Both the position numbers and the translations under genes were made by a program. From contig MHAK01000112.1 in NCBI GenBank assembly GCA_001802945.1, forward strand, positions 1-64,000: a stretch of 64,000 nucleotides of DNA. Direction: 5' to 3'. The notes under the pieces were generated by a model. The model was not told the DNA's origin, did no database searches, and saw only the letters and a list, made by a program, of their open reading frames with translations. This document shows positions 5,726-26,643 of the stretch, in pieces. Source of the DNA: Ignavibacteria bacterium RIFCSPLOWO2_12_FULL_56_21 (GTDB lineage: Bacteria > Bacteroidota > Ignavibacteria > UBA10030). Numbering within the stretch: the first letter of the stretch is position 1; every line of letters begins with the position of its first letter.

Positions 5726-5726
5726 C

Positions 5727-6752: not shown

Positions 6753-6860
6753 ATCGCAGCGTGTAGGTCAAAGATTCGCGAAGGTCCTTCACCAAACACG
6801 TCATCCCCGACTGTCGCGTTTGCTGGCGCAGGTCCTCAGTTTCCCTTCTTTCTTCCACCG

Positions 6861-9281: not shown

Positions 9282-11419
9282 AACTTCTCCTGCGAATATG
9301 TTTCCTGACCGTAACGCTTGCCGCTTCTGTCGCGGCGCAGGGAACATTCTCTGTCATATTTGATGACGATCTGATCTCCTCGGTCTACCGCGACGCGTCG
9401 TACGGATTTGCATCCAGCGGCGATTACCTAAAGCTGATGAACACGGACAAAATGCCCCTTGACGCCGTCCATCGCTACAGTGGTACGATGTCAGCTGTTC
9501 TCGAGTACGATCACATGTCCGGCGGCAACTGGGAGATGTTTCTGGCGAGCAATGGATGGCAAACACGCGATTTTTCCGGTTATGACAGTCTGGTATTCTT
9601 CGTGAACGCTCCGGCGCCTATCCCAGGGGTGGAATTGCCGAAGGTCGGACTTGAAGAAGCAACGACCAATGCCAAGACGCCGCTCGTTGACATGGGGTCG
9701 TACGTCACACTCGATGGGGACACGAACAGCTGGCAGCGTGTCGCAATTCCCTTCAGCGCATTCGAGCCCTTTGGCGGGTTTTCACTTGCTTCCGTCAAAA
9801 CGGTCCGTTTTACTGCCAATGGACTGACATCGGGCACTAGAACATTGTGGATCGACCTCCTCGCGGCTGTTCGCATCACGGGGGGGCCTTCCACGCCGCC
9901 TCCGCTCTCGACCGATCGTCTCCTGGATACTCTCCAGTATGCTGCGTTTGCGTATTTCTGGAATGAAGCAAATCTCGCAACCGGACTTGTGAAGGATCGC
10001 AGCTCTCAGGGAGCACCCGCAAGCATCGCAGCCGTCGGCTTTGGCCTCAGCGCGCTCACCATTGGCGTTGATCGGGCGTGGGTCACGCGCGAATCTGCAA
10101 GCGACCGCGTGCTGACGACTCTGAGGACTTTCTGGGAGAAGCCGCAGGGAACGAGTGTTTCAGGGATGATCGGATATAAAGGATGGTTCTATCATTTCCT
10201 CGACATGAATACTGGCGTTCGGACTTGGAATTCAGAATTGTCTTCCATCGACACAGGGCTTTTGTTGGCGGGCATTCTCGACGCACAGATGTACTTCAAC
10301 GGCTCGGACTCCACTGAATCTTTGATTCGTTCTCTGGCAGATTCGATCTACAATCGAGTGGATTGGGTTTGGATGGCGAACAGCGGGTCGACCCTCTCGA
10401 TGGGATGGTTCCCGGAAAATGGCGGATCGTTTCTCGGTGCAAGATGGATCGGCTACAACGAAGCGATGATATTGTATATTCTCGGCATGGGGGCCACTGA
10501 AAACGCTCTCCGCGGAAGCGCCTGGGGAGCATGGACCAGCGGTTACCAGTGGAAATCATACGCTGGCTACGACCATGTTGCCTACCCTGCGTTGTTCACT
10601 CACCAATACTCGCAATGCTGGGTTGATTTTCGAAACATTGACGATATGTATATGCGAGGGCGGGGAATTACGTACTTTGAAAACTCGCGGCGGGCAACCC
10701 TCGCCAACCGGGCATACTGTATCGCTAATCCCGGCGGGCGCGCAGGATACGGCCCCGATATCTGGGGATTGACGGCATGTGATGGGCCAACCGAATACCG
10801 TGAACGTGGAGCTCCATTTGGGTATGACGATGGCACGATTGCACCGACCGCGGCGATCAGCTCCATTGCTTTCACGCCGAACGAATCGATCCAAGCCGCA
10901 CATGCAATGTACGAGAGATATGGTGAGGAGCTTTTCGGACCATACGGTTTTCGGGACGCGTTCAATGTCGGCGCAAATTGGTTTGCCACTGATTACCTCG
11001 GCATCGATGAAGGCCCGATCATTATCATGATCGAAAACCATCTCCGACAAACGGTATGGAACCGTTTCATGGAACATCCGGTAGTAATAGCCGGCCTGGC
11101 GGCGGCCGGATTTCAGACCATTACGGCTCTGGCCGAGGGGGGTGGATCTGTCCCACAGGCTTTTTCACTTTCCCAAAATTATCCAAATCCGTTCAATTCC
11201 ACGACGATCATTGAGTTCCGCATTCCTCATGCTGCGCACGTGAGTCTGCAGGTGTACGATGTGCTTGGAAGGGAGGTTGGCTCTTTAGTCGAGGAAGTCT
11301 TGCCGTCTGGTAGATACACTCGGAATTGGAACGCAAGCGGTCTTCCCTCAGGCGTGTACTACTATCGTCTCGATGCTGCCAGCTACCGTGAGACGAAGAA
11401 GATGATTTTTTTGCAATAG
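9278..11419 (+). CDS. secreted GH144-type (glycoamylase domain) glucanase with CBM-like and T9SS domains
   Basis: 713 residues. A signal peptide (ends AASVAAQG) is followed by a galactose-binding/CBM11-like beta domain (about 25-200). The (alpha/alpha)6 glycoamylase domain (PF10091; about 205-615) contains YKGWFYHFLD, ELSSIDTGLLLAGIL and the terminal GPIIIMIENHLR block. The T9SS type A sorting domain (about 625-713) contains LSQNYPNPFNS and LPSGVYYYRLDA. Bacterial members of this domain family form GH144, endo-beta-1,2-glucanases or sophorohydrolases. The T9SS tail predicts export across the outer membrane and surface anchoring, so this is the likely first enzyme on polymeric glucan. ATG overlaps the GH94 stop (ATGA). 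Its neighbour is a shorter paralogue without the CBM and sorting domain. The fold is firm; the beta-1,2 specificity is inferred. Confidence 0.88.
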   Translation: MKLLLRICFLTVTLAASVAAQGTFSVIFDDDLISSVYRDASYGFASSGDYLKLMNTDKMPLDAVHRYSGTMSAVLEYDHMSGGNWEMFLASNGWQTRDFSGYDSLVFFVNAPAPIPGVELPKVGLEEATTNAKTPLVDMGSYVTLDGDTNSWQRVAIPFSAFEPFGGFSLASVKTVRFTANGLTSGTRTLWIDLLAAVRITGGPSTPPPLSTDRLLDTLQYAAFAYFWNEANLATGLVKDRSSQGAPASIAAVGFGLSALTIGVDRAWVTRESASDRVLTTLRTFWEKPQGTSVSGMIGYKGWFYHFLDMNTGVRTWNSELSSIDTGLLLAGILDAQMYFNGSDSTESLIRSLADSIYNRVDWVWMANSGSTLSMGWFPENGGSFLGARWIGYNEAMILYILGMGATENALRGSAWGAWTSGYQWKSYAGYDHVAYPALFTHQYSQCWVDFRNIDDMYMRGRGITYFENSRRATLANRAYCIANPGGRAGYGPDIWGLTACDGPTEYRERGAPFGYDDGTIAPTAAISSIAFTPNESIQAAHAMYERYGEELFGPYGFRDAFNVGANWFATDYLGIDEGPIIIMIENHLRQTVWNRFMEHPVVIAGLAAAGFQTITALAEGGGSVPQAFSLSQNYPNPFNSTTIIEFRIPHAAHVSLQVYDVLGREVGSLVEEVLPSGRYTRNWNASGLPSGVYYYRLDAASYRETKKMIFLQ

Positions 11420-11438
11420 TCAGCGAAAGGTATTGGAC

Positions 11439-12833
11439 GTGAAGCGTCTGCTTCTCAATCTAAGCTTCGTCTGTATAGCGACCTTCTCTGGTTTTCCTTC
11501 AGGAAACCACAGCCTCTCCGCGCAACAACGTTGGGACCCTTTCCTCGACACACTTCAACAACGGACGTTTATGTGGTTTTGGCAAACCACCAACCCTGCG
11601 AACGGCCTCACGCCGGATCGTTGGCCGACGCAATCGTTTTCGAGCGTTGCTGCCATTGGTTTCGCACTCACGGCATATCCGGTCGGTGTCGAGCGGGGCT
11701 ATGTTGGGCGCGCTGCCGTTGCCGATCGTGTGTTGACCACGCTGAAGTTTCTCTGGTACGCGCCGCAGAGCGATCACCCGAATCAAGCAACAGGATACAA
11801 AGGATTTTTCTATCATTTCCTCGATCACGAAAGCGGCTTGCGGTTCGAGAAGGTCGAGCTCTCGACGATCGACACGGCACTTCTGCTTGCTGGAATCCTC
11901 ATGTGCCAATCATACTTCGACCGTCAGAACCGGGCCGAAAAAGATATTCGCGCGTATGCCGATTCCGTCTATCGGCGTGTCGATTGGCGGTGGGCGCAGT
12001 CGAGGCCTCCGCGGGTAGCGTTAGGATGGTATCCCGATCGGGGATTCATCGAACATGACTGGAAGGGCTATGATGAAGCGATGATTTTGTATATCCTTGC
12101 GCTCGGTTCTCCAACATACGGGATAGAACCTGAGGCGTGGGGAGCATGGACAGAGACGTATGTGTGGGCGAGCTATTACGGGGCCGAATTCGTCAGCTTT
12201 GGGCCTCTCTTTGGACACCAATACTCGCATTGTTGGATAGACTTCCGTGGAATTCAGGATCCGTACATGAAAGCGAAGGGGATCGACTACTTCGAGAATG
12301 CGCGACGTGCTACGTATTCTCAACGGGCGTACGCGAAGGAAAATCCCCGAAAGTACCGGGATTATTCAGAAAACATTTGGGGATTGACGGCGTGTGACGG
12401 TCCGGGAGACAAGGCCTTCGCGGTGGACGGGCAAAAGAGGCGATTTCTGGGGTATGCCGCACGCGGAGTTTCCTTCGACTGGGTCAATGACGATGGAACG
12501 ATCGCTCCGACGGCCGCGGGGGGATCGTTGGCGTTTGCCCCGGAGATCAGTCTGCCGGCGCTCAAAACGATGCGAGAGAAATACGGCTCACAGCTTTTCA
12601 GAGAGTACGGTTTTGCGGATGCATTCAATCCGACCTATATAACACCGTCAACTCCGAACGGATGGTTCGATGTAGATTATCTGGGAATTGATCAAGGGCC
12701 CATAGTGATCATGATCGAAAACCTGCGCTCGGAGTTCATCTGGAAGACTATGCAGAAGAATCCTTACGTCGTTCGGGGATTGAACAGAGCCGGCTTCACC
12801 GGCGGATGGTTAGAAAAGTCCAAAGGGAATTGA
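11439..12833 (+). CDS. periplasmic GH144-type glucanase (paralogue of upstream enzyme)
   Basis: Glycoamylase-domain protein of 464 residues, with motifs shared with its upstream neighbour: YKGFFYHFLD, ELSTIDTALLLAGIL, NIWGLTACDGP and GPIVIMIENLRSEF. It has a signal peptide (KRLLLNLSFVCIA...SLSAQ) but no carbohydrate-binding domain and no T9SS tail, so it should stay in the periplasm. I chose GTG 11439 because the GAAAGG at 11425-11430 lies 8 nt upstream; a TTG at 11433 would leave only 2 nt. It lies 19 nt after the upstream stop. It would cut imported oligosaccharides further, complementing the surface enzyme. The tandem pair probably arose by duplication. Family assignment is strong; exact endo or exo activity cannot be told. 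Confidence 0.87.
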   Translation: MKRLLLNLSFVCIATFSGFPSGNHSLSAQQRWDPFLDTLQQRTFMWFWQTTNPANGLTPDRWPTQSFSSVAAIGFALTAYPVGVERGYVGRAAVADRVLTTLKFLWYAPQSDHPNQATGYKGFFYHFLDHESGLRFEKVELSTIDTALLLAGILMCQSYFDRQNRAEKDIRAYADSVYRRVDWRWAQSRPPRVALGWYPDRGFIEHDWKGYDEAMILYILALGSPTYGIEPEAWGAWTETYVWASYYGAEFVSFGPLFGHQYSHCWIDFRGIQDPYMKAKGIDYFENARRATYSQRAYAKENPRKYRDYSENIWGLTACDGPGDKAFAVDGQKRRFLGYAARGVSFDWVNDDGTIAPTAAGGSLAFAPEISLPALKTMREKYGSQLFREYGFADAFNPTYITPSTPNGWFDVDYLGIDQGPIVIMIENLRSEFIWKTMQKNPYVVRGLNRAGFTGGWLEKSKGN

Positions 12834-12850
12834 ATTGTAAGGAATGACAT

Positions 12851-15556
12851 TTGTCCGAACCGAACGTATTCTCTTCCGATAGCGCGAAAGTCCGAAATGA
12901 ATTCTCGCTGAACGGCCTTTGGGAGCTTCAAGCCGGAAGCGGGGAGAAGCGTCCACAGAAATACCTGAGCGTCGTTCCTGTACCGGGGCTAGTTGATCTT
13001 GCAGTCCCTTCATACAACTGGGATGGGGTCGATTACCATTGGTATAGAACGCATTTCACTGTTGACGATGATGAGATGCCGACGTTGGCGTTCCTCAGGA
13101 TCAACCAGGCCCAATTCGGAACGGTCGCGTGGTTGAACGGCAAGGAGATAGGTTCAAGCATCAGTTGTTACACTTCTCAGGAGTACCGGATCGATTCCGT
13201 ACTCAAGCTCAACGATCTCAACGAACTGATCGTTCGGATCGGGGCAAAGGGGACGCTGCCTCCGGAGAGTGCCGTGGGGAAGGACCAGGAGAAGGAGCGA
13301 TTCATCCCCGGTGTGTGGGGCGATGTCTCGCTGATGTTCTGCGGCAATCCCCGCATTCAACATGTTCAGATCATTCCCCACATCGACAAAGCCATTGCCG
13401 AAGTGGTCGTTACACTTGAGAATACCGATTCATCCCCGAAGAACGTCTCACTCTCTCTCCGCGTTTCTGAACGAGTATCGCGCAAGTTCGCCTCAGAGCG
13501 ATTCGTCAAACATGTCGAAACGCCTGCATCTCAACTGACAATAGCCACGTTCATGGTCCCGATCGAGAACGTGCAGCTTTGGTCACCGGATTCTCCGTTT
13601 CTCTATGAACTGGAATCGGCCGTCAGCGATGAAGACGGTCCAGCCGACCTGGTTGTCACGGTTTTTGGAATGCGGAAATTCGGAATCACGGGGAAAGGAT
13701 TCTTTCTGAACGGAAAGCGAATATTCCTGAAAGGGGGGAATATTGCATTCCATCGATTTCTATCGGACAAGGAACGGATGCTCCTGCCATGGAATCGCGA
13801 GTGGATCATGCGGGCGCTTATTGAAATTCCAAAAGAACATCATTTCAACTTCTTTCGGAATCATCTCGGACAGATGTACAGCGCCTGGTATGATATCGCG
13901 GATGAACACGGGATGCTCATCCAAAACGAATGGCACTTTTGGGGAGCGACAGGGAGCACAAAGCAGATCTCAAAAGAATTCACCGAATGGATTAGGGACA
14001 ACTGCAATCATCCCAGTATTATCATGTGGGACGCCTTGAATGAGTCATCCGATGAACATGTTCAGCAAGAGATCGTACCGAAGATGAAATTACTCGATCC
14101 CACGCGACCGTGGGAGTCGGTGGATTTCGTCGAAGAGCACCCATACATCTACTCTTTGGGGCCGGTTTTGAATAACACGCGGTTTGGATTTACGCGGGCA
14201 CTTGAGGACATTGAGAACTCCGCGACTCCAACTATGCTTAATGAATTTGTCTGGTGGTGGCTCAACAGCAATGGGGAGCCCACTTATCTTATGAAAGGTG
14301 TCACCGAGCGCTGGCTTGGACCAGAGAGCTCGAAGGGAGAACTGCTTGAGCATCAGGCATTTCTCGCCCAGGAATTGGTCGAGCTGTTCCGAAGAATGCG
14401 GGTGGATGCCATTCAGCCTTTTGTGTATCTCAGCAACAATAATGGACCCACTGCGCATTGGTTTCTCGGACCCATTGAACAACTTAAGCCGAAGCCGATC
14501 CTCGCGGCTCTCAAGAATGCATTTGCCCCCTTTGGTATCAGTCTGGAATTGTGGGACCGCCATTTTTTCACCGGGGAAAAGCGATTAGTGAATACCTGGG
14601 TGTTCAATGATGAACCGCAGGTGAAGGAGGGTATGATCCGATACGGCGTCACCGATTCGAGCGGGGTCTGGGTCTGGGAAAAGGAAGTTCCCGTCATCGC
14701 GGCACCGTCAGACGCCCAAGAACTTTCCCTCGAATTCGAATTCCCTTCAAGGCCCGGCGTGTATCACGCGAGCGTGGAGTTGCACGATCGGGGTTCGGGG
14801 AGGCGCACGTCGGTGAGCCGGAAGGTGGCTCATGTGTTGAGTACGATTGCGGCTCCCGGAGATCATGCGGGAAAATATCTTGCCATACTCGAGCGATCCG
14901 GCGAGTACCGCTCATTCTTCGAAGGGCACGGCATCCGGGTTTGTGATGTTGTGACCCAGCCCCTCGGCAGTTGCGGGGCAGTCGTTATCGGAGAAGGTGT
15001 AACGGAGTCTCTGCGAACCGGAGAGTTTCTGGACCGACTCTCGAACTACGTATCGGGCGGTGGATATCTCGTCATTATTGAACCTGAGTTTGGAATTCAA
15101 GCGAAGTGCGTACTCCCTGTGTTGAGGGACCTTGACATTGTTATTGAACCGAGAGAAGATGCTGATCGAGGAGGATACGATTCGTATGTTTTCGCTTCAG
15201 ACTTGCTGCACCCGCTTTGGGTGGGTATTTCCCGGGAACATCTGAAAATGTTCAACGGTGGATATGGCGGAGAAGTGGTGTCGCAACATAACCTCGTTCC
15301 TAGCGTGGAGCCGATTGTACACGCCCGCTCCGGCATAGCACTGGCGATCCCCGCAATAATGGAGATTCCGTACGGGAAAGGGAAGGTTATCATATCCCGT
15401 CTCCAGACCCGTGGACGTTTGTCAGGGAATGAAAGCACGACGAATGCGTTCGCGCGAAGACCAGATCCGGTTCTGCAGCGCTTCATGCTCAACCTCCTCC
15501 GCTACGCCTTTGCATGGTCAAACCCAGTGCCTACCATGGCGATGAAAAATGCTTGA
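12851..15556 (+). CDS. glycoside hydrolase family 2 protein
   Basis: 901-residue GH2 enzyme, no signal peptide, hence cytosolic. Order: sugar-binding jelly roll (about 15-165; VPVPGLVDLAVP, YHWYRTHF), immunoglobulin-like domain (about 170-285), TIM barrel (about 290-590), then an accessory region. The proposed acid/base is Glu398 in WDALNES and the nucleophile Glu465 in TMLNEFVWWW; their spacing fits the family. The C-terminal 220 residues (about 670-890; GAVVIGEG, YVSGGGYLVIIEPEFG) look like a class I glutamine-amidotransferase-like fold without catalytic residues, as in some beta-galactosidase trimerisation domains. TTG start with AAGGA 7 nt upstream. GH2 covers beta-galactosidases, mannosidases and glucuronidases; in this operon a beta-glucosidase-like role on disaccharides is possible but unproven. 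Confidence 0.88.
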   Translation: MSEPNVFSSDSAKVRNEFSLNGLWELQAGSGEKRPQKYLSVVPVPGLVDLAVPSYNWDGVDYHWYRTHFTVDDDEMPTLAFLRINQAQFGTVAWLNGKEIGSSISCYTSQEYRIDSVLKLNDLNELIVRIGAKGTLPPESAVGKDQEKERFIPGVWGDVSLMFCGNPRIQHVQIIPHIDKAIAEVVVTLENTDSSPKNVSLSLRVSERVSRKFASERFVKHVETPASQLTIATFMVPIENVQLWSPDSPFLYELESAVSDEDGPADLVVTVFGMRKFGITGKGFFLNGKRIFLKGGNIAFHRFLSDKERMLLPWNREWIMRALIEIPKEHHFNFFRNHLGQMYSAWYDIADEHGMLIQNEWHFWGATGSTKQISKEFTEWIRDNCNHPSIIMWDALNESSDEHVQQEIVPKMKLLDPTRPWESVDFVEEHPYIYSLGPVLNNTRFGFTRALEDIENSATPTMLNEFVWWWLNSNGEPTYLMKGVTERWLGPESSKGELLEHQAFLAQELVELFRRMRVDAIQPFVYLSNNNGPTAHWFLGPIEQLKPKPILAALKNAFAPFGISLELWDRHFFTGEKRLVNTWVFNDEPQVKEGMIRYGVTDSSGVWVWEKEVPVIAAPSDAQELSLEFEFPSRPGVYHASVELHDRGSGRRTSVSRKVAHVLSTIAAPGDHAGKYLAILERSGEYRSFFEGHGIRVCDVVTQPLGSCGAVVIGEGVTESLRTGEFLDRLSNYVSGGGYLVIIEPEFGIQAKCVLPVLRDLDIVIEPREDADRGGYDSYVFASDLLHPLWVGISREHLKMFNGGYGGEVVSQHNLVPSVEPIVHARSGIALAIPAIMEIPYGKGKVIISRLQTRGRLSGNESTTNAFARRPDPVLQRFMLNLLRYAFAWSNPVPTMAMKNA

Positions 15557-16841
15557 GCAAGCTCAACTGTTGGCAACCTCTAAGCGCTTTCTCTGGTGTG
15601 CCGTGCTGATTGTTGTGGCAGCTTCATGCAGGCATGAACAAGGCTCGGAGGTCCTGGTCACTTTTTGGGCAATGGGTGCGGAAGGTGAACGTGTACAGAC
15701 GCTGATACCGGAGTTCGAGCGTCGAAATCCGGGGATTCGAGTAAAAGTCCAGGCGATCCCGTGGACAGCCGCTCATGAGAAGCTCTTGACGGCGTACGCG
15801 GGTACCTCAACGCCCGATGTTGCCCAACTTGGGAACACGTGGATCCCGGAGTTCACAACGCTCGAGGCTCTTGAGAATCTCGACCCGTGGATCGGTGAGT
15901 CTACGGTCATTCGGAACGCCAACTACTTCCAGGGTTTCTGGGAAACAAATGTCATTCAGGGGTCGGTGTACGGTATCCCATGGTATTGCGACACCCGCGT
16001 GCTCTTCTACCGAAGAGATATTTTGACGCATGTCGGGTATCCCTCCGGTCCGGCAACGTGGGATGAATTGTTGGAAGCTTCTGTGAAGATCAAGGCCATG
16101 GATAAGAGTGTAGATCGGTACGCAATCTTTCTCCCCACCAATGAATGGAACGTTCCTGTCATCATAGGACTTCAGGCCGGGTCACCCATTTTAAGGGACC
16201 GTCATCAATACGGCGATTTCTCCGGGACGGCGTTTAGAAAGGCATTCGAACTGTATATCGACCTTTTTCGAAAGGGTCTCGCACCATCCGGCCTTTCCCA
16301 AATGACCAATGTATATCTCTCGTTTGCGGAGGGGTACTTCTCCATGTATGTTACAGGCCCATGGAATGTCGGAGAATTCCGCCGTCGAATGCCCGCGAAC
16401 TTGCGAGACCAATGGATGACAGCTCCTATCCCCGGTTTTGCAGGGAACATTCCAGGTATCTCGCTTGCCGGCGGATCAAGTCTGGTGATGTTTAAGTCGT
16501 CCACGCGAAAGGCGGAAGCATGGAAATTCATAGAGTTTCTTTCGGAGCCGGAACAACAGGTTGCCTTTTATCGTCTCACGGGCGACCTTCCGCCGGGAAT
16601 CAAAGCGTGGGAGGATACCGTGCTCGTCAACGACCCTCATCTCAGGGCATTCCGAACCCAACTCCAGCATGTCGAGCCCACACCGAGAATTCCCGAATGG
16701 GAACAGATCGCGATAAAGGTTCAGGAATACGCTGAAGCAGTTTCCATGAATCGGATGACGGTAGACCAAGCTCTTGCCGCGCTGGATCGCGATGCCGACC
16801 GAATTCTCGAAAAACGCCGCTGGCTTCTTGCTCAGGAATGA
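15549..16841 (+). CDS. sugar ABC transporter substrate-binding lipoprotein
   Basis: 430-residue family 1 extracellular solute-binding protein. A signal anchor ending in the lipobox VAASC predicts a lipid-anchored periplasmic protein. The mature start (VLVTFWAMGAEGERVQTLIPEFERRNPGIRV) is typical of MalE-like binding proteins, and the C-terminal SLAGGSSLVMFKSS and EAWKFIEFLSEPEQQ blocks are conserved. It overlaps the GH2 gene by 8 nt and the first permease by 4 nt, so it forms one import system with them. By analogy with the Listeria sophoro-oligosaccharide binding protein that sits beside a GH94 enzyme, its ligand may be short beta-1,2-glucans; the sequence alone only shows a sugar-type binding protein. 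Confidence 0.9.
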   Translation: MLEQAQLLATSKRFLWCAVLIVVAASCRHEQGSEVLVTFWAMGAEGERVQTLIPEFERRNPGIRVKVQAIPWTAAHEKLLTAYAGTSTPDVAQLGNTWIPEFTTLEALENLDPWIGESTVIRNANYFQGFWETNVIQGSVYGIPWYCDTRVLFYRRDILTHVGYPSGPATWDELLEASVKIKAMDKSVDRYAIFLPTNEWNVPVIIGLQAGSPILRDRHQYGDFSGTAFRKAFELYIDLFRKGLAPSGLSQMTNVYLSFAEGYFSMYVTGPWNVGEFRRRMPANLRDQWMTAPIPGFAGNIPGISLAGGSSLVMFKSSTRKAEAWKFIEFLSEPEQQVAFYRLTGDLPPGIKAWEDTVLVNDPHLRAFRTQLQHVEPTPRIPEWEQIAIKVQEYAEAVSMNRMTVDQALAALDRDADRILEKRRWLLAQE

Positions 16842-17749
16842 AAGTTCCGTTTCTTCATAGCACTGCCCGCCGATTCGGGCACCTCACCTCAGCGATTCTC
16901 TTCCTCGGTCCTGCTCTCATTGCCATAACGTTTTTCTTCGTAATTCCCGTTGTTGCGGCGTTCTTCATGAGCTTCACAGATTTCGATATATATGCTCTCG
17001 GCGATCTTGGTCACCTGAGATTTGTCGGATTGATGAACTATGCGCACCTGTTTGAAGACCCTCTTTTCTGGAAGGCCCTCCAAAACACAGTGTATTTCGT
17101 GGTAGCCGGGGGTCCGCTCTCCGTTGCCGTTTCTCTTGTTGCCGCCCTGCTCCTTCATTCTCGGCTTGTTCGATGGAAGGGATTCTTCCGCATTGTGTAT
17201 TTCATTCCGGTGGTAACGACCCTTGTTGCAGTGGCGGTGGTGTGGCGAGCAATATATCATCCGAGATTCGGTTTGCTGAATTATGTCCTGGGGTTTGTGG
17301 GGATCGATGCGATCGATTGGTTAGGTGACCCCGTTTGGGCCATGCCTGCAATCATTCTTCTCGCGGTCTGGAAGAACTTCGGCTACAACATGATCATTTT
17401 CCTGGCGGGATTGCAAAGCATTCCGGGTGAATTGTACGAAGCTGCGCGCATCGATGGCGCCACTCCGTTCAATCAGTTCCGAAACGTGACGCTTCCCTTG
17501 CTCGCGCCGACATCGCTCTTCGTTGGCATCATTACGATGATCGGATATTTCCAGCTCTTTGCTGAGCCCTATGTGATGACCCAAGGAGGGCCATCCTACG
17601 CAACCCTCAGCATCATCTTGCTCATGTATCAGCACGGCTTCCGCTGGTGGAGTATGGGCTATTCCACCGCGATCGCATTCGTTCTGTTCGCCATCGTGCT
17701 TGTCGTGACCATGATCCAAATGAGGATGCAGAAAGGACTCAACGATTGA
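16838..17749 (+). CDS. sugar ABC transporter permease (MalF-like)
   Basis: 303-residue inner-membrane permease of the binding-protein-dependent transport family. Six membrane segments are evident: one near residues 17-40 (LFLGPALIAITFFFVIPVVAAFF), others near 75-100, 110-135, 165-185, 215-235 and 265-290. The cytoplasmic EAA loop (ELYEAARIDGATPFNQF) contacts the ATPase. ATG overlaps the stop of the binding-protein gene, and the stop overlaps the next permease start. No ATPase gene is present in the locus, so it must use one encoded elsewhere. Confidence in the family is high; the substrate is inferred from neighbours. Confidence 0.92.
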   Translation: MKVPFLHSTARRFGHLTSAILFLGPALIAITFFFVIPVVAAFFMSFTDFDIYALGDLGHLRFVGLMNYAHLFEDPLFWKALQNTVYFVVAGGPLSVAVSLVAALLLHSRLVRWKGFFRIVYFIPVVTTLVAVAVVWRAIYHPRFGLLNYVLGFVGIDAIDWLGDPVWAMPAIILLAVWKNFGYNMIIFLAGLQSIPGELYEAARIDGATPFNQFRNVTLPLLAPTSLFVGIITMIGYFQLFAEPYVMTQGGPSYATLSIILLMYQHGFRWWSMGYSTAIAFVLFAIVLVVTMIQMRMQKGLND

Positions 17750-18567
17750 TGCGTAATGTCCAGAAAGTGCTGATCCACGTCCTGATGTTCGGGCTTGCCG
17801 CTGTGACTGCCGCGCCGCTGATATGGATGGTCTCGGCGTCGCTGATGCCTCCCGGCGGGGCAAGTTCATTCCCGATTCGCCTCATCCCCGAAGTTTTCAC
17901 TTTGGAGCACTACGAAGTTCTCTTCACGCGGCTCAATCTGGGCAAGTACTTTCTTAACAGCACACTTCTTGCGCTCAGCATTACGTTCATTTCGCTCCTC
18001 ATCAATTCGATGGCCGGATATGCCTTTGCAAAATTCCGTTTTCCAGGTCGGGACCCGCTGTTCAGGTCCCTGCTGACCGCGTTGGTCATACCGGCTCAGG
18101 TTACAATGCTTCCGCTGTTTCTCATGCTCAACAAGATGGGGCTGATCAACACATACTGGGGTGTCTTGATTCCGGGAATGGCGAGCATCTTCGGCATTTT
18201 TCTCATCCGGCAGTATGCACTTTCTATTCCGGACAGTCTCATTGAGGCTGCCCGGATGGATGGCGCCAGCGATTTCCGCATCTATTGGAAGATCATCTTG
18301 CCACTGTGCAGGCCGATTCTGGTCACCCTCGGCATTTTCACATTCATGGGGACATGGAATGATTTCCTCTGGCCGTTGATCGTGATGACCGATGATTCCA
18401 TGTATACACTCCCCGTCGCCCTGGCAAACCTCTCCGGCGAACATGTGCAGGATACCGAGCTCATGATGGCCGGTTCGGTTCTCACCATTCTTCCCGTTAT
18501 ACTCGTCTTTATGGTCGTTCAACGGTACTACATCCAGGGCATCATGATGGGAAGCGTCAAGGGGTAA
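17749..18567 (+). CDS. sugar ABC transporter permease (MalG-like)
   Basis: 272-residue second permease of the importer. I start at the ATG at 17749, which overlaps the TGA of the first permease by one base, giving the usual N-terminus MRNVQKVLIHVLMFGLA; an upstream start at 17647 would read into the preceding gene. It has six hydrophobic segments and the EAA motif (SLIEAARMDGASDFRIY), and ends in the common VQRYYIQGIMMGSVKG tail of MalG-type permeases. It pairs with the MalF-like protein to form the channel. Followed after 4 nt by a BNR-repeat gene. Confidence 0.92.
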   Translation: MRNVQKVLIHVLMFGLAAVTAAPLIWMVSASLMPPGGASSFPIRLIPEVFTLEHYEVLFTRLNLGKYFLNSTLLALSITFISLLINSMAGYAFAKFRFPGRDPLFRSLLTALVIPAQVTMLPLFLMLNKMGLINTYWGVLIPGMASIFGIFLIRQYALSIPDSLIEAARMDGASDFRIYWKIILPLCRPILVTLGIFTFMGTWNDFLWPLIVMTDDSMYTLPVALANLSGEHVQDTELMMAGSVLTILPVILVFMVVQRYYIQGIMMGSVKG

Positions 18568-18571
18568 TCGC

Positions 18572-20056
18572 ATGAAGCCGGCCGCCTGCTTCATCCTTCT
18601 ACTCGTATCTGTTTCCGCGTTTGGCCAAAAGAAAGTTCTGGATACGTTCGACCTCCTTGAGGGATGGAACGTCCATGCTTCTGACGGCGGCGTCACATGG
18701 ACCGGACGTGATACTCTCCCCACACATGACAACTTGGCTCAATGGATGCTCGACCCCTCTGTTGGAATCGATACCGATGGAAATCTCTTCATTGCGACGC
18801 TGATGCGTCGGTTCCCCGGCTATGGTATTAGAGTTTCCAAGTCAACCGACGAGGGCCAGTCATGGACACAAAGCAACTTTGCGCTATCGGACCATGTCGA
18901 CAAGCTCCACATGACGATCGATGTCGGGGAAACGAGTCCGTACAAGAATAACGTGTACATAGCATATACAGATGAGAATTTTAGTCCGCGCGTCGACAAG
19001 TTTTCCCGTTCAACAAATGGAGGCCAAGATTTTTCCACGCCGGTGGTAATCACGGGCTCGATCGTCGCTGACCGAACCGGCGGAGTGAATCTTACGGTCG
19101 GTCCCGGCGGTGAAGTGTATGCGACTTGGAGAGCATACAACATTACGTCACGGAGAGGCCGTGTGGGCTTCAACAAGTCTACCGATGGAGGATCTTCGTG
19201 GGGAACGGCGACTGGTATCGACACTCTCCTTTACGAGGGGAGCAGTAAGGGGTTGTTATATCGCAATTTTCCATCCATGGCTGTCGACCGGAGTACGCCT
19301 TCACGGCAAGGATGGATTTACATTGTCTTTGCCGACTCCTCAGCTTCTACATCACCCGATATCTTTCTGATCCGATCTAAGGATAACGGCGCCACATGGA
19401 GCTCTCGTAGGCGGGTCAATCAGGATGCCGGCGCCAAAGATCAGTTCATGCCCTGGCTCACCGTCGATCCGAGCAGCGGCAACCTGTATGTTATCTATTA
19501 CGACAGCCGAAATTTTCCAGCCAACGATTCCGCTCAGGTATACATCTCCGCGTCAAACGATGGCGGCGAGACATTCAAAGACCTGTCGGTGAGCGATCCG
19601 TTCCTTCCGAAACCTGTGCTTCATGGACCGCCGGGCTACATGGGTTCCTACATCGGCATTGTTGCCTCGAACGGAGTCATCCGGCCTTGTTGGATGGATG
19701 ATCGCACCGGCATAAATCAAATCTACTCAACCCGGATCCCTGATTCTGTTTTTCTTACCTCTGTTCCCGAAGTCATCGAAGGAACCGTCCCTGCAGCCTT
19801 CCAGCTTTACCAGAATTTTCCAAACCCATTCAACCCAAGCACGGAGATACAATTCTCTCTGCCGCAAAAGAACCACGTGACGTTGACGATCTTTGATTTG
19901 TTGGGACGGGAGATTGCGGCTTTGCTGGACAAGGATTTGTCGGCAGGCAGCTACAGCACGCGATGGGATGCGGGTTGCATGCCGAGCGGCACGTATTTGT
20001 ATAGGTTGCGCGTGGAAAATTTCGTGGAAGTACGAAAGCTTTTATTGATGCGCTGA
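18572..20056 (+). CDS. secreted BNR-repeat (sialidase-fold) protein with T9SS sorting domain
   Basis: 494 residues with a signal peptide (ends VSAFGQ) and at least five Asp-box/BNR motifs (STDEGQSWTQ, STNGGQDFS, STDGGSSWG, SKDNGATWS, SNDGGETFK), typical of six-bladed propellers such as exo-sialidases and their non-enzymatic relatives. The C-terminus (LYQNFPNPFNPSTEIQFSLP through PSGTYLYRLRVE) is a T9SS type A sorting domain, so the protein should reach the cell surface. I do not see a convincing arginine triad, so a true sialidase is unproven; glycan binding is equally possible. It is the last gene of the glycan operon: an AAGGGG at 18558-18563 precedes ATG at good spacing, 4 nt after the permease stop. 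Confidence 0.8.
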   Translation: MKPAACFILLLVSVSAFGQKKVLDTFDLLEGWNVHASDGGVTWTGRDTLPTHDNLAQWMLDPSVGIDTDGNLFIATLMRRFPGYGIRVSKSTDEGQSWTQSNFALSDHVDKLHMTIDVGETSPYKNNVYIAYTDENFSPRVDKFSRSTNGGQDFSTPVVITGSIVADRTGGVNLTVGPGGEVYATWRAYNITSRRGRVGFNKSTDGGSSWGTATGIDTLLYEGSSKGLLYRNFPSMAVDRSTPSRQGWIYIVFADSSASTSPDIFLIRSKDNGATWSSRRRVNQDAGAKDQFMPWLTVDPSSGNLYVIYYDSRNFPANDSAQVYISASNDGGETFKDLSVSDPFLPKPVLHGPPGYMGSYIGIVASNGVIRPCWMDDRTGINQIYSTRIPDSVFLTSVPEVIEGTVPAAFQLYQNFPNPFNPSTEIQFSLPQKNHVTLTIFDLLGREIAALLDKDLSAGSYSTRWDAGCMPSGTYLYRLRVENFVEVRKLLLMR

Positions 20057-20340: not shown

Positions 20341-20348
20341 TTCGGCAG

Positions 20349-20420
20349 TAGCCCTAACGGGAATCGAACCCGTATTTTGGCCTTGAGAGGGCCACGTCCT
20401 AACCGTTAGACGATAGGGCC
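20349..20420 (-). tRNA. tRNA-Glu (CUC anticodon)
   Basis: 72-nt cloverleaf on the minus strand. The anticodon loop CTCTCAA sits between GGCC/GGCC stem bases, giving anticodon CUC (reads GAG). The D-arm TCTAACGGTTAGGA and T-arm ACGGGTTCGATTCCCGT are canonical. The acceptor stem GGCCCTA/TAGGGCT has a terminal G-U pair. CCA is not encoded. Downstream of tRNA-Gln, separated only by a palindrome. Confidence 0.95.
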
Positions 20421-20421
20421 T

Positions 20422-20554
20422 TAACATTGGTACATTTGACATTTTACATTGAACATTGGTTTGAGTCGCGGAGAAGCGGTGAGTCGATTGACTCACCCCA
20501 ATGTCCCCGACCTCCATCAATGTAAAATGTCCAATGTTAAATGTACCAATGTTA
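20422..20554. repeat. palindrome fitted between two tRNA genes
   Basis: Imperfect inverted repeat with arms at 20422-20452 and 20517-20554. The arms are strings of a degenerate 7-mer, ACATTNN (ACATTGG, ACATTTG, ACATTTT, ACATTGA); the right arm has one unit more. Inside is a second perfect hairpin, GGTGAGTC-GATT-GACTCACC (20478-20497). The outer ends lie one base from tRNA-Glu and one base from tRNA-Gln, so the palindrome fills the whole spacer of the tRNA precursor. Confidence 0.85.
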
Positions 20555-20555
20555 G

Positions 20556-20628
20556 CTGCCCGACCAGGGCTCGAACCTGGACTCTTCTGATCCAGAGTCA
20601 GACGTGTTGCCAATTACACCATCGGGCA
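20556..20628 (-). tRNA. tRNA-Gln (CUG anticodon)
   Basis: 73-nt cloverleaf on the minus strand. Acceptor TGCCCGA/TCGGGCA with discriminator G, anticodon stem TCTGA/TCAGA around loop CTCTGGA (anticodon CUG, reads CAG), T-arm CCAGGTTCGAGCCCTGG. CCA is not encoded. It is first in the unit, followed by the palindrome and tRNA-Glu. Confidence 0.95.
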
Positions 20629-21437: not shown

Positions 21438-22739
21438 ATGCCCAAACGACCTGTTTCTCGTCAAGCCCGCCCGGCTGCTGCAAACGATACGGACATTCCG
21501 TGGACCTCAATGTTCTCGTCCCTCGGAAGGATCGAAGTCGTGCTCCTGGTTGGGGGTGTGCTGCTGCTCCTGATGCTGATCTATACGATCCAATCGATCC
21601 TTTCGCCCTTCCTCGTCCTGGGAGCCATTCTTTTTCTCCTGTTTCCTCTCAGGCAATACATCCTTGCCAGAAATCTGATGTGGCTGGCCGCCATTTTGTT
21701 CGGGCTGTGGTTCCTCCACGAAGTGTCTCCCATTTTGGCGCCGTTTGTCGTGTCGCTCGTCTTTGCGTATATCCTGGCCCCCCTGGTCGATGTCTTCGAA
21801 CGATGGCGCGTGCCCCGATGGTTGACTTCCCTCGTCCTGCTTTTCCTCTTTGTCGCCGGCATTGTGCTTGCGGTGTTCTTCATTCTCCCGGTTGCGGTCG
21901 CACAGCTTGAAGGCGTGCTCGATGCCGTGTCGTCGGTCATTTCGGATTGGCGTTCGACGCTGTGGAACAGCAATATTGTCCGCCTGCTGCAGCGGTATGG
22001 AATTCCCGCCAACGACCTCCGTTCCATTCTCTCCAATCAACTGACGCCCCGGCTGGAGGATATTCTGAAGACGCTCTTCAGCGCGTCTGCTTCTTTGCTT
22101 TCGAGCATTTCCGGCGTGTTGACACAAATCTTCTATCTCATCCTGGTTCCATTCCTCACATTCTACATGTTGACTGATTTTCCGAAGATCAGTCATCGGT
22201 TCAAAATGCTATTTCCACGCCCGGTGCGGGACAAGGTAGCGCTCGGCATGGAGCAGGCAGACGAATTGATCGGACATTACCTCCGTGGAGCGCTGACCGT
22301 GGCGATTCTGCAGGGATTTACCGTCTCGGTCATCTTCTCCATCTTCGGGATCAAGTATGCCCTGCTCTTGGGCCTCCTCGCCGCAGTCCTGGACCTCGTG
22401 CCGTACTTCGGCCTTATCATCACCATGCTCATTTCCATGCTCGTCGCGTCGTTCAGCGACCCGCCGGTCGTTCCAAAGATCATCTTCGCGCTGGGGTCGG
22501 TCGGCGCACTCCATTTGTTCGAAGTGGCGTTCCTCTCCCCGCGCATCGTCGGCAGCAAAGTCGGGCTGCACCCGCTGCTCATCATCCTTGCCCTGCTCGT
22601 GTTCATGCAATTCCTTGGGTTCGTAGGACTCCTGGTCGCTGTACCGGCCACGGCGCTGCTTATTCAGATCACCAAGGAGTGGGAAAAGGGCCGGCGCCGG
22701 GGAGCGTCCGAGAACGACGGAACCTACGCCCAATCGTGA
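21438..22739 (+). CDS. AI-2E family transporter (PerM/UPF0118)
   Basis: 433-residue polytopic inner-membrane protein. After a charged 30-residue N-terminus it has hydrophobic pairs near 35-75 and 80-115, a central segment near 130-160, a soluble amphipathic stretch, then several more segments to residue 415. LVPFLTFYMLTDFPKI and AVLDLVPYFGLIITM are characteristic of the AI-2E/PerM exporter family. Members export autoinducer-2 or act as Na+/H+ antiporters, so the substrate is open. ATG with AGGAGA 8 nt upstream; its stop overlaps rsmI by one base, implying translational coupling. Confidence 0.9.
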   Translation: MPKRPVSRQARPAAANDTDIPWTSMFSSLGRIEVVLLVGGVLLLLMLIYTIQSILSPFLVLGAILFLLFPLRQYILARNLMWLAAILFGLWFLHEVSPILAPFVVSLVFAYILAPLVDVFERWRVPRWLTSLVLLFLFVAGIVLAVFFILPVAVAQLEGVLDAVSSVISDWRSTLWNSNIVRLLQRYGIPANDLRSILSNQLTPRLEDILKTLFSASASLLSSISGVLTQIFYLILVPFLTFYMLTDFPKISHRFKMLFPRPVRDKVALGMEQADELIGHYLRGALTVAILQGFTVSVIFSIFGIKYALLLGLLAAVLDLVPYFGLIITMLISMLVASFSDPPVVPKIIFALGSVGALHLFEVAFLSPRIVGSKVGLHPLLIILALLVFMQFLGFVGLLVAVPATALLIQITKEWEKGRRRGASENDGTYAQS

Positions 22740-23431
22740 TGTCCGGCATCCTGTATTTGGTCGCCACGCCCATCGGCAACCTTGAAGACATCACTCTTCG
22801 CGCTATACGCGTTCTCAAAGAGGTCGATGTCGTCGTGTACGAGGAACGGAAGGAAGGCGGGCGGCTTCTTCGTCATTTGGGCATCGAGAAGCCGGTGGAA
22901 AGCCTTAATGAACACAATGAGGCCGCGGCGACCGGGATCATTCTCGACCTCATCAAGTCCGGCAAGTCTGTCGCGCTTATTTCCGACGCCGGCACACCGG
23001 TCTTTTCGGACCCGGGACAGCTTCTCGTCCAGCGCGCCGTGGATGCGGACATTCGCATCGTTCCCATTCCGGGTGCGTCATCGTTGCTTCCCGCGCTGAC
23101 AGTGTCCGGATTTTCCATCGGCGAATTTGTCTTCGCCGGATTCCTTTCACCGAAGCGCAATCGCCGCATCGTCGAATTGCAGCAGCTCAAGCGCGAGCAA
23201 CGAACCATCGTCTTGATGGATGCTCCGTACCGTCTCGTGCAGCTCATGCGCGACATCGCCGATGTTCTGGGGAAGGAGCGACGGGTGTGCGTGGCCTTCG
23301 ACCTAACCCTGCCGACGGAGACGATCTTTCACGGAACTGCCCCGCAGCTCTTTCAGGAATTCTCGCGATCGGAGAAGAAGGGGGAATTTGTCGTCGTACT
23401 GGAAGGTTCCTCGAGAATCTCCGACCGATGA
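22739..23431 (+). CDS. rsmI: 16S rRNA (cytidine1402-2'-O)-methyltransferase
   Basis: Uses S-adenosylmethionine to methylate the 2'-hydroxyl of C1402 in the ribosomal decoding centre. 230 residues from the ATG at 22739, which overlaps the previous stop (TGATG); a start upstream at 22679 would add residues unlike the family. Family motifs: LYLVATPIGNLEDITLRA, LISDAGTPVFSDPG and PIPGASSLL. This is shorter than E. coli RsmI (286), lacking part of the C-terminal helical domain, as in several other phyla. It overlaps the following lipoprotein gene by 4 nt. Confidence 0.95.
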   Translation: MSGILYLVATPIGNLEDITLRAIRVLKEVDVVVYEERKEGGRLLRHLGIEKPVESLNEHNEAAATGIILDLIKSGKSVALISDAGTPVFSDPGQLLVQRAVDADIRIVPIPGASSLLPALTVSGFSIGEFVFAGFLSPKRNRRIVELQQLKREQRTIVLMDAPYRLVQLMRDIADVLGKERRVCVAFDLTLPTETIFHGTAPQLFQEFSRSEKKGEFVVVLEGSSRISDR

Positions 23432-23841
23432 ACCTGCGTGTCGCAGTTGCCATGACGTTCGCCCTGGGCTGCTCGGGAGAGACAAATTCACCGCAGCTTG
23501 AGCAGATCGAACCTTCCTTCGCGAGCATTCAACGCGTTGTCTTCAACGCCTCGTGTTCAGCAACTTCCTGCCACGGGTCGACGGCGAAGGCGGGACTGAC
23601 ATTGACGCCGGGCTCGTCGTACGCAAACCTCGTCAATGTGACCAGCCAGAACGACAACGCGCACTCTCCGCAATTCAAGCGCGTCCTACCCGGTTCGCCG
23701 GATTCCAGCTTCCTGTGGATCAAGCTGACAAACCCGGGGCCTCAACAGGGAGACCGTATGCCGCAGGTTGGAAACTCATTGCCCGATGAGTATCTTCAGG
23801 CCATTCGGACATGGATCGTCCAGGGTGCTCAGAACAACTGA
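23428..23841 (+). CDS. cytochrome-like lipoprotein with CX4CH motif
   Basis: 137-residue exported protein. The start MNLRVAVAMTFALGC (ATG 23428, overlapping the rsmI stop) gives a lipoprotein signal with lipobox FALGC. Around residue 45 lies CSATSCHGS, a CX4CH variant of the haem c attachment motif, followed by AGLTLTPGSSYANLVNV, a VLPGSPDSSFLWIKL block, and GDRMPQVG whose Met could be the distal haem ligand, then IRTWIVQGAQ. This layout matches a small lipoprotein family common in Deltaproteobacteria and FCB bacteria, related to planctomycete-type cytochromes. Haem binding is inferred, since CX4CH is non-standard. The next gene, a copper-protein homologue, begins 10 nt on, suggesting a redox pair. 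Confidence 0.75.
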   Translation: MNLRVAVAMTFALGCSGETNSPQLEQIEPSFASIQRVVFNASCSATSCHGSTAKAGLTLTPGSSYANLVNVTSQNDNAHSPQFKRVLPGSPDSSFLWIKLTNPGPQQGDRMPQVGNSLPDEYLQAIRTWIVQGAQNN

Positions 23842-23851
23842 TAGGGCCGCG

Positions 23852-24799
23852 ATGACACGGTACCTCTTTCCTTCAGTCGGATTGATCTTCTTTCTCTCCT
23901 GCGCGACGAAAGGTCCCTCAGGTCCGGACCCGTCTGCCAGTGACGTACAGTTGGATCCCCCGCCTCAGGGCCAGGGCGTTCAGCTGGCCATCCCGCCATT
24001 CAGCGTTCCGCAAGGAGATGAAGTTCAGCGCAACTACTTCATGACACTGCCGTCGGATTCCGACCTGTATGTAACGCGCGTGGAGTTCCGGTACAACGAA
24101 GGGAGCCATCATTGCAACGTCTTCAAGTCCGATTCCCTGACCATGCCTGAAGGGACATTCACCGAAACCTTCATAACACTCGACTACACCAAATGGGACA
24201 TGTTCACGGCATCACAGCGAGAAGCTTTTACCTGGCAGTTACCTCCGGGCGTGGCCATTTATCTGAAAGCGCATCAGCAGATCTGCATCCAAACGCACTA
24301 CGTGAACGCCTCAACACAAGAGACGCCAACTGCACGGGGCAAAGTGCTGTTGAATCTCTGGTCCATGCCGGCGTCCGAAGTAACATCAGTCGCCGGGCTT
24401 CTCTTTGCTTCCAATACAAGGATCATTTTACCCCCGGGGTCCATCGATACGGTGAGAAAATTCGTCGTCAAGATCCCATGGGACATTAACATCCTCACTC
24501 TTACGGGACATTTTCACAGTCGGGGAAGGAATTTTTGGGCCGTGCGATTCACGACCGGAGAAGAATTCTACCGCAATGTCTCCTGGGACGAGCCACCGAT
24601 CAAGGTCTTTCCGGATATGGGATACCCTTTGATCCGGAATGAGCAGATCGTGTATTACTCGGATTACTACAACGCGTCAGCCGACACGGTGTATATGGGC
24701 CCGCACGTGGAGAACCAGGAGCATTCAAACCTCTTCATGGTGTATTGGCCGGGGCCTGCGAACGGCAAGACGATCTACGATGTGGATCAGGGTTGGTGA
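23852..24799 (+). CDS. PHM/DBM-like copper type II monooxygenase-fold lipoprotein
   Basis: 315-residue lipoprotein (MTRYLFPSVGLIFFLSC, lipobox at residue 20). The pattern of His and Met residues matches the catalytic core of peptidylglycine alpha-hydroxylating monooxygenase. His86-His87 (NEGSHHCNVF) and His149 (CIQTHYVN) fit the CuH site; His220, His222 (LTGHFHSRG) and Met296 (SNLFMVYW) fit the CuM site. The spacings (62, 71 and 74) resemble those of PHM (64, 70 and 70). This suggests a periplasmic or surface oxidase of unknown substrate using two mononuclear coppers. I start at ATG 23852; an upstream start at 23768 would overlap the preceding gene and hide the lipobox. Coupled with the CX4CH cytochrome-like gene. 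Confidence 0.72.
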   Translation: MTRYLFPSVGLIFFLSCATKGPSGPDPSASDVQLDPPPQGQGVQLAIPPFSVPQGDEVQRNYFMTLPSDSDLYVTRVEFRYNEGSHHCNVFKSDSLTMPEGTFTETFITLDYTKWDMFTASQREAFTWQLPPGVAIYLKAHQQICIQTHYVNASTQETPTARGKVLLNLWSMPASEVTSVAGLLFASNTRIILPPGSIDTVRKFVVKIPWDINILTLTGHFHSRGRNFWAVRFTTGEEFYRNVSWDEPPIKVFPDMGYPLIRNEQIVYYSDYYNASADTVYMGPHVENQEHSNLFMVYWPGPANGKTIYDVDQGW

Positions 24800-24870: not shown

Positions 24871-26643
24871 CTATTTCACAAGAAGGAGTGCGCGGATTGA
24901 CGATGAGCGGCTCGTCGTAAGGCGGCACAAGTACACACCGGAAGGGAGAAGGGAAGCATTGAACGTCGCACTGTGTGATCCCGCCTCGAAGCGCTGATCG
25001 GCGATGAGGGCGACGCTGCGGCCGAGTTGGTCGAAGATCTCCAGACGGACACGTCCGGAAAAGGAGAGTGAAAAGGAGATGCGCGTCGACGTATTGAACG
25101 GGTTCGGGTAGTTGTGGAGTGCAACGGGGTCTTCGACCTCCTGGACCTGTTCGGTTTCATCAGCGACGCCTGTGGCCGTTCCCTCATCAAGCTGATGCGT
25201 TGTATTCACGGCAAGACCAAACCAATATTCCACCTTCCCCGGTCCCCACGTCACCTCCACCGTATCAAGTATTGCCGCAGAGCCGACGCCGAAGAGTGCG
25301 ACGGGACTTACCTGCGAGCAATAGCTGGAACCGGCAATTACGCTGCGGACAAAGCGCTGTCCTCCTGCACGAACAAGGATCGTAGCGCCGACAGCACCGC
25401 GATTGACGGATGTCCCACGCAGATGGAACGACGCCCAATTGCCGACACCCGATGTAGCGTTGATCCAAAGCTTGTTTTGTCCAGAAGGTGAAAAACTGGC
25501 CCCCACGATGTCCTGCCTCCCGTCGCCGTTGAAGTCCCCGGTGGCAAGTCCGTAAAAGTCCGCGTTCGATGCAAAACCAGATTGGGGTCCGACGTCTGTA
25601 AAAGTGCCATTGCCGTTGTTGCGGTACAAGAGACTGGTTCTGTGTAGGCCGCCGAAGCTCGCAATGTTGACGATCGCCAGGTCCTCATTGCCGTCATTGT
25701 CAAAGTCGGACCACGCAACTCCCCAGGACATGCCATTGGAATCCGCGTTGGCGGTTGCAGCGATCTCCTGGAAGTTGCTCCCCGCCACATTGCGATATAA
25801 CCCTCCATGGTCGATCCGCGTGACATACACATCCTGCCAACCATCGTTATTCATGTCGCCCCACGCGACGCCCATGCTGTTGCCAGCGCCGACGCTGTCG
25901 AGATGCACCTGTGGCGCAACATCGGGCATGGGCATCGTGCCGTCGTTTCTGAACAACTGACTCTTGTCGAACCCGTCGTGAACGGCAAACAGATCCACGT
26001 CGCCATCCTGATCGTAGTCGATCCACGTCGCTTGCATTGCGATGGTTGACGGTCCCCCGGCAACGCCGGCCTCACTGGTAACGTCGTCAAACGTAATCGT
26101 GGAATTCACGGAGGAATTCCTGTACAACCGATCGGGTGAATCCCGCGTGGCAAGGAACAGATCGAGGCGGCCGTCGTTATTGAAGTCTCCAGCGGCAGCT
26201 GTGCCGACGGACACAAGTGTGTCGATGCCGGAACCCTTTGTTACATCGGTGAAATGTCCGCTATCGTTGCGAAGGAGACGATTGGTGCCGACAGCATCCT
26301 GCGCCCCGAGAAAGAGGTCGGGGTCGCTGTCGTTGTCCCAATCGGCGAAGATGGGAGCCACATAGCGGCCGCTTCGAGAGACACCCGAGGTTGCGGTAAC
26401 ATTTGTGAAGTGGGCCGAGCCGTCGTTCTGGAACAACGCAACGCCGTACCATCCGGCAAAGAGGATGTCGTCATCCCCGTCGACGTCATAGTCGGCGACG
26501 GCCACACCTTGGGGACTGAAGGTAGTTGCCAGGCCGGCGGCGATTCCGTTTTCGTAGAACGTGATCTGCGAATGCAGGGGGGCGATAGATGCGGAAAAAA
26601 TGAGGGAGAGTGCTATCCTCGAGCTGATCGAGACGATGTTCAC
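24871..26643 (-). CDS. secreted VCBS/FG-GAP and ASPIC/UnbV protein with T9SS sorting domain
   Basis: 590 residues. The signal peptide ends ASIAPLHSQ. Residues about 35-390 are FG-GAP/VCBS propeller repeats with Asp-rich calcium loops (DYDVDGDDDILFAG, DWDNDSDPDLFLG, DFNNDGRLDLFLA, DYDQDGDVDLFAV, DMNNDGWQDVYV, DFDNDGNEDLAIV, DFNGDGRQDIVGA). An ASPIC/UnbV domain follows (about 395-490; SVNRGAVGATILVRAGGQRFVRSV), then a T9SS type A tail (LHNYPNPFNTSTRISFSLSF to LPSGVYLCRLTTS). The layout is CRTAC1-like: a surface protein for adhesion or display, not an enzyme. It starts 4 nt after pdaD on the same strand. No specific ligand can be proposed. Confidence 0.88.
   Translation of the reverse strand: MNIVSISSRIALSLIFSASIAPLHSQITFYENGIAAGLATTFSPQGVAVADYDVDGDDDILFAGWYGVALFQNDGSAHFTNVTATSGVSRSGRYVAPIFADWDNDSDPDLFLGAQDAVGTNRLLRNDSGHFTDVTKGSGIDTLVSVGTAAAGDFNNDGRLDLFLATRDSPDRLYRNSSVNSTITFDDVTSEAGVAGGPSTIAMQATWIDYDQDGDVDLFAVHDGFDKSQLFRNDGTMPMPDVAPQVHLDSVGAGNSMGVAWGDMNNDGWQDVYVTRIDHGGLYRNVAGSNFQEIAATANADSNGMSWGVAWSDFDNDGNEDLAIVNIASFGGLHRTSLLYRNNGNGTFTDVGPQSGFASNADFYGLATGDFNGDGRQDIVGASFSPSGQNKLWINATSGVGNWASFHLRGTSVNRGAVGATILVRAGGQRFVRSVIAGSSYCSQVSPVALFGVGSAAILDTVEVTWGPGKVEYWFGLAVNTTHQLDEGTATGVADETEQVQEVEDPVALHNYPNPFNTSTRISFSLSFSGRVRLEIFDQLGRSVALIADQRFEAGSHSATFNASLLPSGVYLCRLTTSRSSSIRALLLVK

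Follow-up and report, generated by a model that had tools for sequence, protein, structure and literature searches.

Two adjacent lipoprotein genes in an Ignavibacteria genome encode a protein with a two-domain fold like that of peptidylglycine hydroxylating monooxygenase (PHM)—a fold supported by sequence profiles and a structure model—and a small predicted haem c protein that probably serves as its electron donor. The C-domain copper site of the PHM-like protein is predicted to consist of three histidines (His3), where PHM itself has two histidines and a methionine (His2Met). The sequence analysed here, which we call the window, is a stretch of 64,000 nucleotides from one contig (MHAK01000112.1) of the 3.36 Mb draft genome of Ignavibacteria bacterium RIFCSPLOWO2_12_FULL_56_21. 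Its relevant features are as follows.

23428..23841, plus strand: gene A, lipoprotein of 137 aa, predicted to carry one haem c; lipobox Cys15, haem motif C43-X4-C48-H49, predicted axial Met111 (GDRMP)
23852..24799, plus strand: gene B, PHM-fold lipoprotein, 315 aa; predicted CuH-type ligands H86, H87 and H149; predicted CuM-type ligands H220, H222 and H291
24722..24724, plus strand: codon for His291 (QEHSNLF), positional equivalent of PHM Met314
24737..24739, plus strand: codon for Met296, the ligand proposed in the initial annotation, variable in the clade
24871..26643, minus strand: gene F, 590 aa; FG-GAP beta-propeller, UnbV_ASPIC domain and T9SS sorting domain (Pfam matches)

Both open reading frames of the pair are real, as the initial annotation had it, and its residue numbers for the putative ligands (H86, H87, H149, H220, H222 and M296) are right. 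The two frames are consecutive on the plus strand, 10 nt apart, with lipoboxes ending ...ALGC15 (gene A) and ...FLSC17 (gene B); an rsmI-like frame (22679-23431) lies upstream and its end overlaps the start of gene A at 23428 by 4 nt. Searches around the pair found no promoter- or terminator-like sites, and a search for a plasmid match found none. Elsewhere in the window, genes for tRNA-Glu(ctc) and tRNA-Gln(ctg) occupy 20348-20628 on the minus strand, and a glycoside hydrolase family 2 gene, sugar-type ABC importer genes and a BNR-repeat T9SS protein follow one another at 12851-20056, which is likely a carbohydrate-use cluster.

The initial annotation had proposed a profile search and a structure prediction as checks on the PHM-like protein. 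Searched alone against Pfam, gene B gave no relevant match and fell below the cut-offs for Cu2_monooxygen and Cu2_monoox_C, but its relatives did match: two relatives (L002 and L025) exceed the curated Cu2_monoox_C cut-off, all 17 of the 17 Met-type relatives in alignment A6 match that model at E<0.1, and a profile of 18 relatives matched rat PHM at E=2e-8 over both domains, with dopamine beta-hydroxylase following at 1e-7. Even a profile built from the His clade alone (seven sequences) still matched PHM at E 5e-4. The structure prediction also returned a PHM fold. An AF2 model of gene B, built from a four-sequence alignment, reached a mean pLDDT of 74.7 and a pTM of 0.77, with residues 282-289, just ahead of His291, below pLDDT 50; in a Foldseek search of this model against the PDB, the 31 best matches were all PHM or dopamine beta-hydroxylase, headed by 1yip (E 1.8e-10, TM 0.60). 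Since these two largely independent routes agree, the two-domain PHM fold of gene B is supported, and a likeness this far above chance is homology. A match to cytochrome f (E 0.005-0.015), seen in single-sequence NCBIfam and PDB searches and absent from the profile search, was dismissed as chance.

Five of the six PHM copper ligands are in place. H86, H87, H149, H220 and H222 correspond to PHM H107, H108, H172, H242 and H244 in every alignment and are invariant across all members and PHM, with the first three occupying the three-histidine CuH site. In PHM, mutation of H107, H108 or H172 abolishes activity, and the two coppers lie about 11 Å apart (PMC6123673). The initial annotation had counted all six ligands, with Met296 as the sixth; the five histidines stand, and the sixth position falls instead to His291, where PHM ...SSDEM314CNLYIMYY aligns with gene B ...NQEH291SNLFMVYW. 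This register, which puts His291 in the Met314 column, was the same in five alignments: MAFFT on 18 sequences, an HMM built from Met-type proteins only, MAFFT including PHM in two modes, the clade profile against PHM, and HHalign of the clade against its sister group. In the final ligand set (15 members of the clade plus 25 sister proteins, a few of the latter closely related to one another), the column holds His in 15/15 clade members and Met in 25/25 sister proteins and in rat PHM. In a tree that held 8 of the 15, the His-type proteins are split from the others by a branch with 100/100 support. Because His is fixed throughout a monophyletic clade, His291 is best read as a retained ligating residue, not as a loss, and the CuM-type site in the C domain is accordingly predicted, from the alignments, to be His3 (H220, H222 and H291). 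Gene B is homologous to the PHM/dopamine beta-hydroxylase superfamily while missing one of its defining features, the His2Met site, of which it keeps H220 and H222, with His291 at the position of Met314.

The surroundings of the copper sites bear on the likely substrate. PHM Arg240 anchors the carboxylate of the substrate and, together with Asn316 and Tyr318, takes part in peptide binding. Gene B shares with rat PHM (1phm, 1yip, 1opm) the two-domain fold, the five histidine positions and the positions of Q170 and N316 (its Q147 and N293, both in columns that differ in the sister group), but besides His291 for Met314 it has Thr218 for Arg240, Phe295 for Tyr318 and Cys88 for Met109, and it is a lipoprotein with a haem protein partner and without a fused PAL. 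Q170 sits in the peptide-binding water network of PHM (PMC6123673). The carboxylate anchor that marks peptidylglycine monooxygenase proper is missing from gene B, so a glycine-extended peptide is disfavoured as its substrate. With dopamine beta-hydroxylase (4zel), gene B has in common the fold and the five histidine positions; it differs in lacking a DOMON domain, in having His for the CuM Met and in its likely electron source, a cytochrome c in place of ascorbate/cytochrome b561.

A functional link between genes A and B, suggested in the initial annotation, is borne out by natural fusions and by conserved clusters. Most sister proteins (440-550 aa) begin with a cytochrome domain that contains MPLG and a CX2CH, CX3CH or CX4CH motif and carry the PHM-like domain behind it, and a single HMM of these fusion proteins matches gene B at E 3e-39 (model 167-441) and, through their N-terminal domain, gene A at E 4e-29. 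Such bacterial cytochrome-Cu2_monoox_C fusions (for example L002, L005 and L012) share with genes A and B the two modules, the cytochrome family and the fold, and differ in being one chain, in having Met at CuM and Asn where gene B has Q147, and in a haem spacing that ranges from CX2CH to CX4CH. Close relatives of the window genome, such as L032, are Bacteroidota. In this phylum, 10/10 assessable loci have a homologue of gene A no more than about 4 kb from gene B, in most cases right beside it: the window, G434, G438, G467 (= L032), G441, G208, G498, G486, G528 and G508. G520 and G513 fall outside this count, as their contigs end too soon. The gene A homologues in these clusters carry CX4CH, except for CX5CH in G528; that one (CTAPGSCH; L109, G528:C37, 3652-4107, plus strand) overlaps its gene B homologue by 4 bp. 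No cytochrome was found within about 6 kb of the two Polyangium members (L033 and L034), which are myxobacterial, His-type and have a different downstream lipoprotein. Stand-alone Met-type PHM-like lipoproteins also occur (L003 in G299 and L074 in G468), with flanks that contain no cytochrome motif.

Gene A is, as first described, a lipoprotein with a CX4CH haem motif (C43-SATS-C48-H49; lipobox Cys15), and C15, C43, C48, H49, M111 and P112 are invariant in gene A and its homologues (alignment A3). It thus carries the CXnCH motif and distal Met of a c-type cytochrome, and haem c assembly genes of CcmC/CcmF/CcsA type are encoded in the window genome. Its matches to Cytochrome_CBB3 and TIGR03806 are weak and under the cut-off, its profile weakly matches the C-terminal cytochrome domain of hydrazine synthase alpha and also FoxE, and its AF2 model reached a pLDDT of 34. 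With TIGR03806-type cytochrome domains, the hydrazine synthase domain and FoxE it has in common the CXnCH motif and an ending (MP... then W-I-x-x-G-A); it differs from them in being a single small lipoprotein and in falling below every curated cut-off. An acyloxyacyl hydrolase match (E 0.017) was set aside as chance.

Gene F, overlooked in the initial annotation, is probably a third component of the system. It is the sole UnbV_ASPIC gene of the window genome and shares 39% identity with its counterpart in the L032 operon; it or a homologue adjoins gene A/B homologues in six loci (the window, L032/G467, G438, G208, G508 and G520). In L032 and G438 the homologue immediately precedes gene A, the two overlapping by 4 bp; in G208 it separates B from A, and in G520 it neighbours B. 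G508 has five homologues, interspersed with two B genes and a single A gene. The G508 locus (L110, G508:C85:70001-85354) runs at 3028-15353 on the minus strand through a cut PHM-like gene, three FG-GAP-type genes, a PHM-like gene, two more of FG-GAP type and a CX4CH cytochrome, and then an OmpA-like gene. In G434 and G441, the one UnbV gene of the genome is located elsewhere, away from A and B. A beta-barrel-like exported frame replaces the FG-GAP gene between B and A in G498 and G486 (L106 8309-9247, L107 9420-10346; 55% identical). Gene F shares FG-GAP repeats and UnbV_ASPIC with UnbV_ASPIC/CRTAC1-like proteins, with a T9SS tail, and differs from them in its linkage to a PHM-fold protein and a cytochrome.

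These computed results—fold, ligand positions, fixation of His291 and gene linkage—frame a scheme in which we infer copper and haem loading, the direction of electron flow, monooxygenase chemistry, the substrate and the role of gene F. Gene B would be a copper type II enzyme tethered to the membrane and folded like PHM and dopamine beta-hydroxylase, with a CuH-type site in its N domain and a CuM-type site of three histidines in its C domain. PHM draws its electrons from ascorbate (PMC6123673). Gene A would hand single electrons to the coppers of gene B, in the role that ascorbate plays in animals; a haem donor instead of ascorbate is plausible. The O2-binding C-domain copper could then hydroxylate a substrate outside the cytoplasm, one not anchored as in PHM by a C-terminal glycine carboxylate, and gene F, exported through the T9SS, might present the substrate, be the substrate or organise the complex. 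On balance, we lean towards gene B as a tethered two-copper monooxygenase with a His3 C-domain site and the gene A haem as its electron donor. The broader proposal, that a natural PHM-fold clade activates oxygen at an all-His CuM-type site with its own c-type cytochrome and an exported FG-GAP/UnbV partner, is more tentative, and we would sooner doubt than assert it.

The strongest competing explanation keeps the fold and the copper sites and drops the monooxygenase: the His3 site would bind O2 or relay electrons, as an oxidase, an O2 sensor or a copper relay, and the cytochrome would either take up or supply electrons. Only in this clade has His become fixed in place of Met at the catalytic copper, and the clade departs from its sister group at N293 and Q147 as well. 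Moreover, Met314His in rat PHM reportedly abolishes activity (work of the Blackburn laboratory), so the His3 site may not hydroxylate; that report leaves substantial weight with a non-oxygenase function, and makes the finding interesting. However, the remaining ligands and the fold are intact, and among the sister proteins, those that carry this cytochrome domain retain Met along with every other PHM ligand, 17/17 of them matching Cu2_monoox_C; we judge this explanation rather unlikely, if a serious contender. A dead PHM-fold scaffold or adhesin, its histidines kept for structure, would suit the link to an FG-GAP beta-propeller surface protein, but it is improbable given that, at an overall identity of 30-60%, all six ligand positions hold fixed metal-binding residues, and that a haem partner is nearly always present. 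Very little can be said for the original suggestion of a PHM-type His2Met CuM site using Met296, which lies 74 residues past H222, near the PHM spacing of 70: Met296 aligns with PHM Ile319 and not with Met314, its column reads M2 L5 A2 V2 T3 C1 in the 15 clade members, and relatives at 60% identity carry Leu there, so that, of the ligands first listed, the five histidines are conserved among orthologues and Met296 alone is not. That chance alone placed genes A and B side by side, as the Polyangium members might hint, is the least credible reading of all, contradicted by natural A-B fusions in many genomes and by clusters conserved in every assessable Bacteroidota locus.

The open-access literature yielded no description of the pairing of a cytochrome with a PHM-like protein, nor of a CuM site with a naturally occurring His; most subscription chemistry journals lay outside this search, so the absence argues weakly for novelty. 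The oxygen-binding copper of PHM and dopamine beta-hydroxylase requires one Met, for a reason that has been debated for decades, and a clade with a fixed His and a dedicated haem donor is a natural experiment on that requirement. If the His3 clade is active, Met would not be essential for coupled two-copper hydroxylation; if it is inactive as a hydroxylase, it would reveal an alternative job for a His3 site. The linkage gives a context to hypothetical proteins tied to UnbV/ASPIC proteins, and the pairing of genes A and B suggests how bacteria without ascorbate may run the PHM fold.
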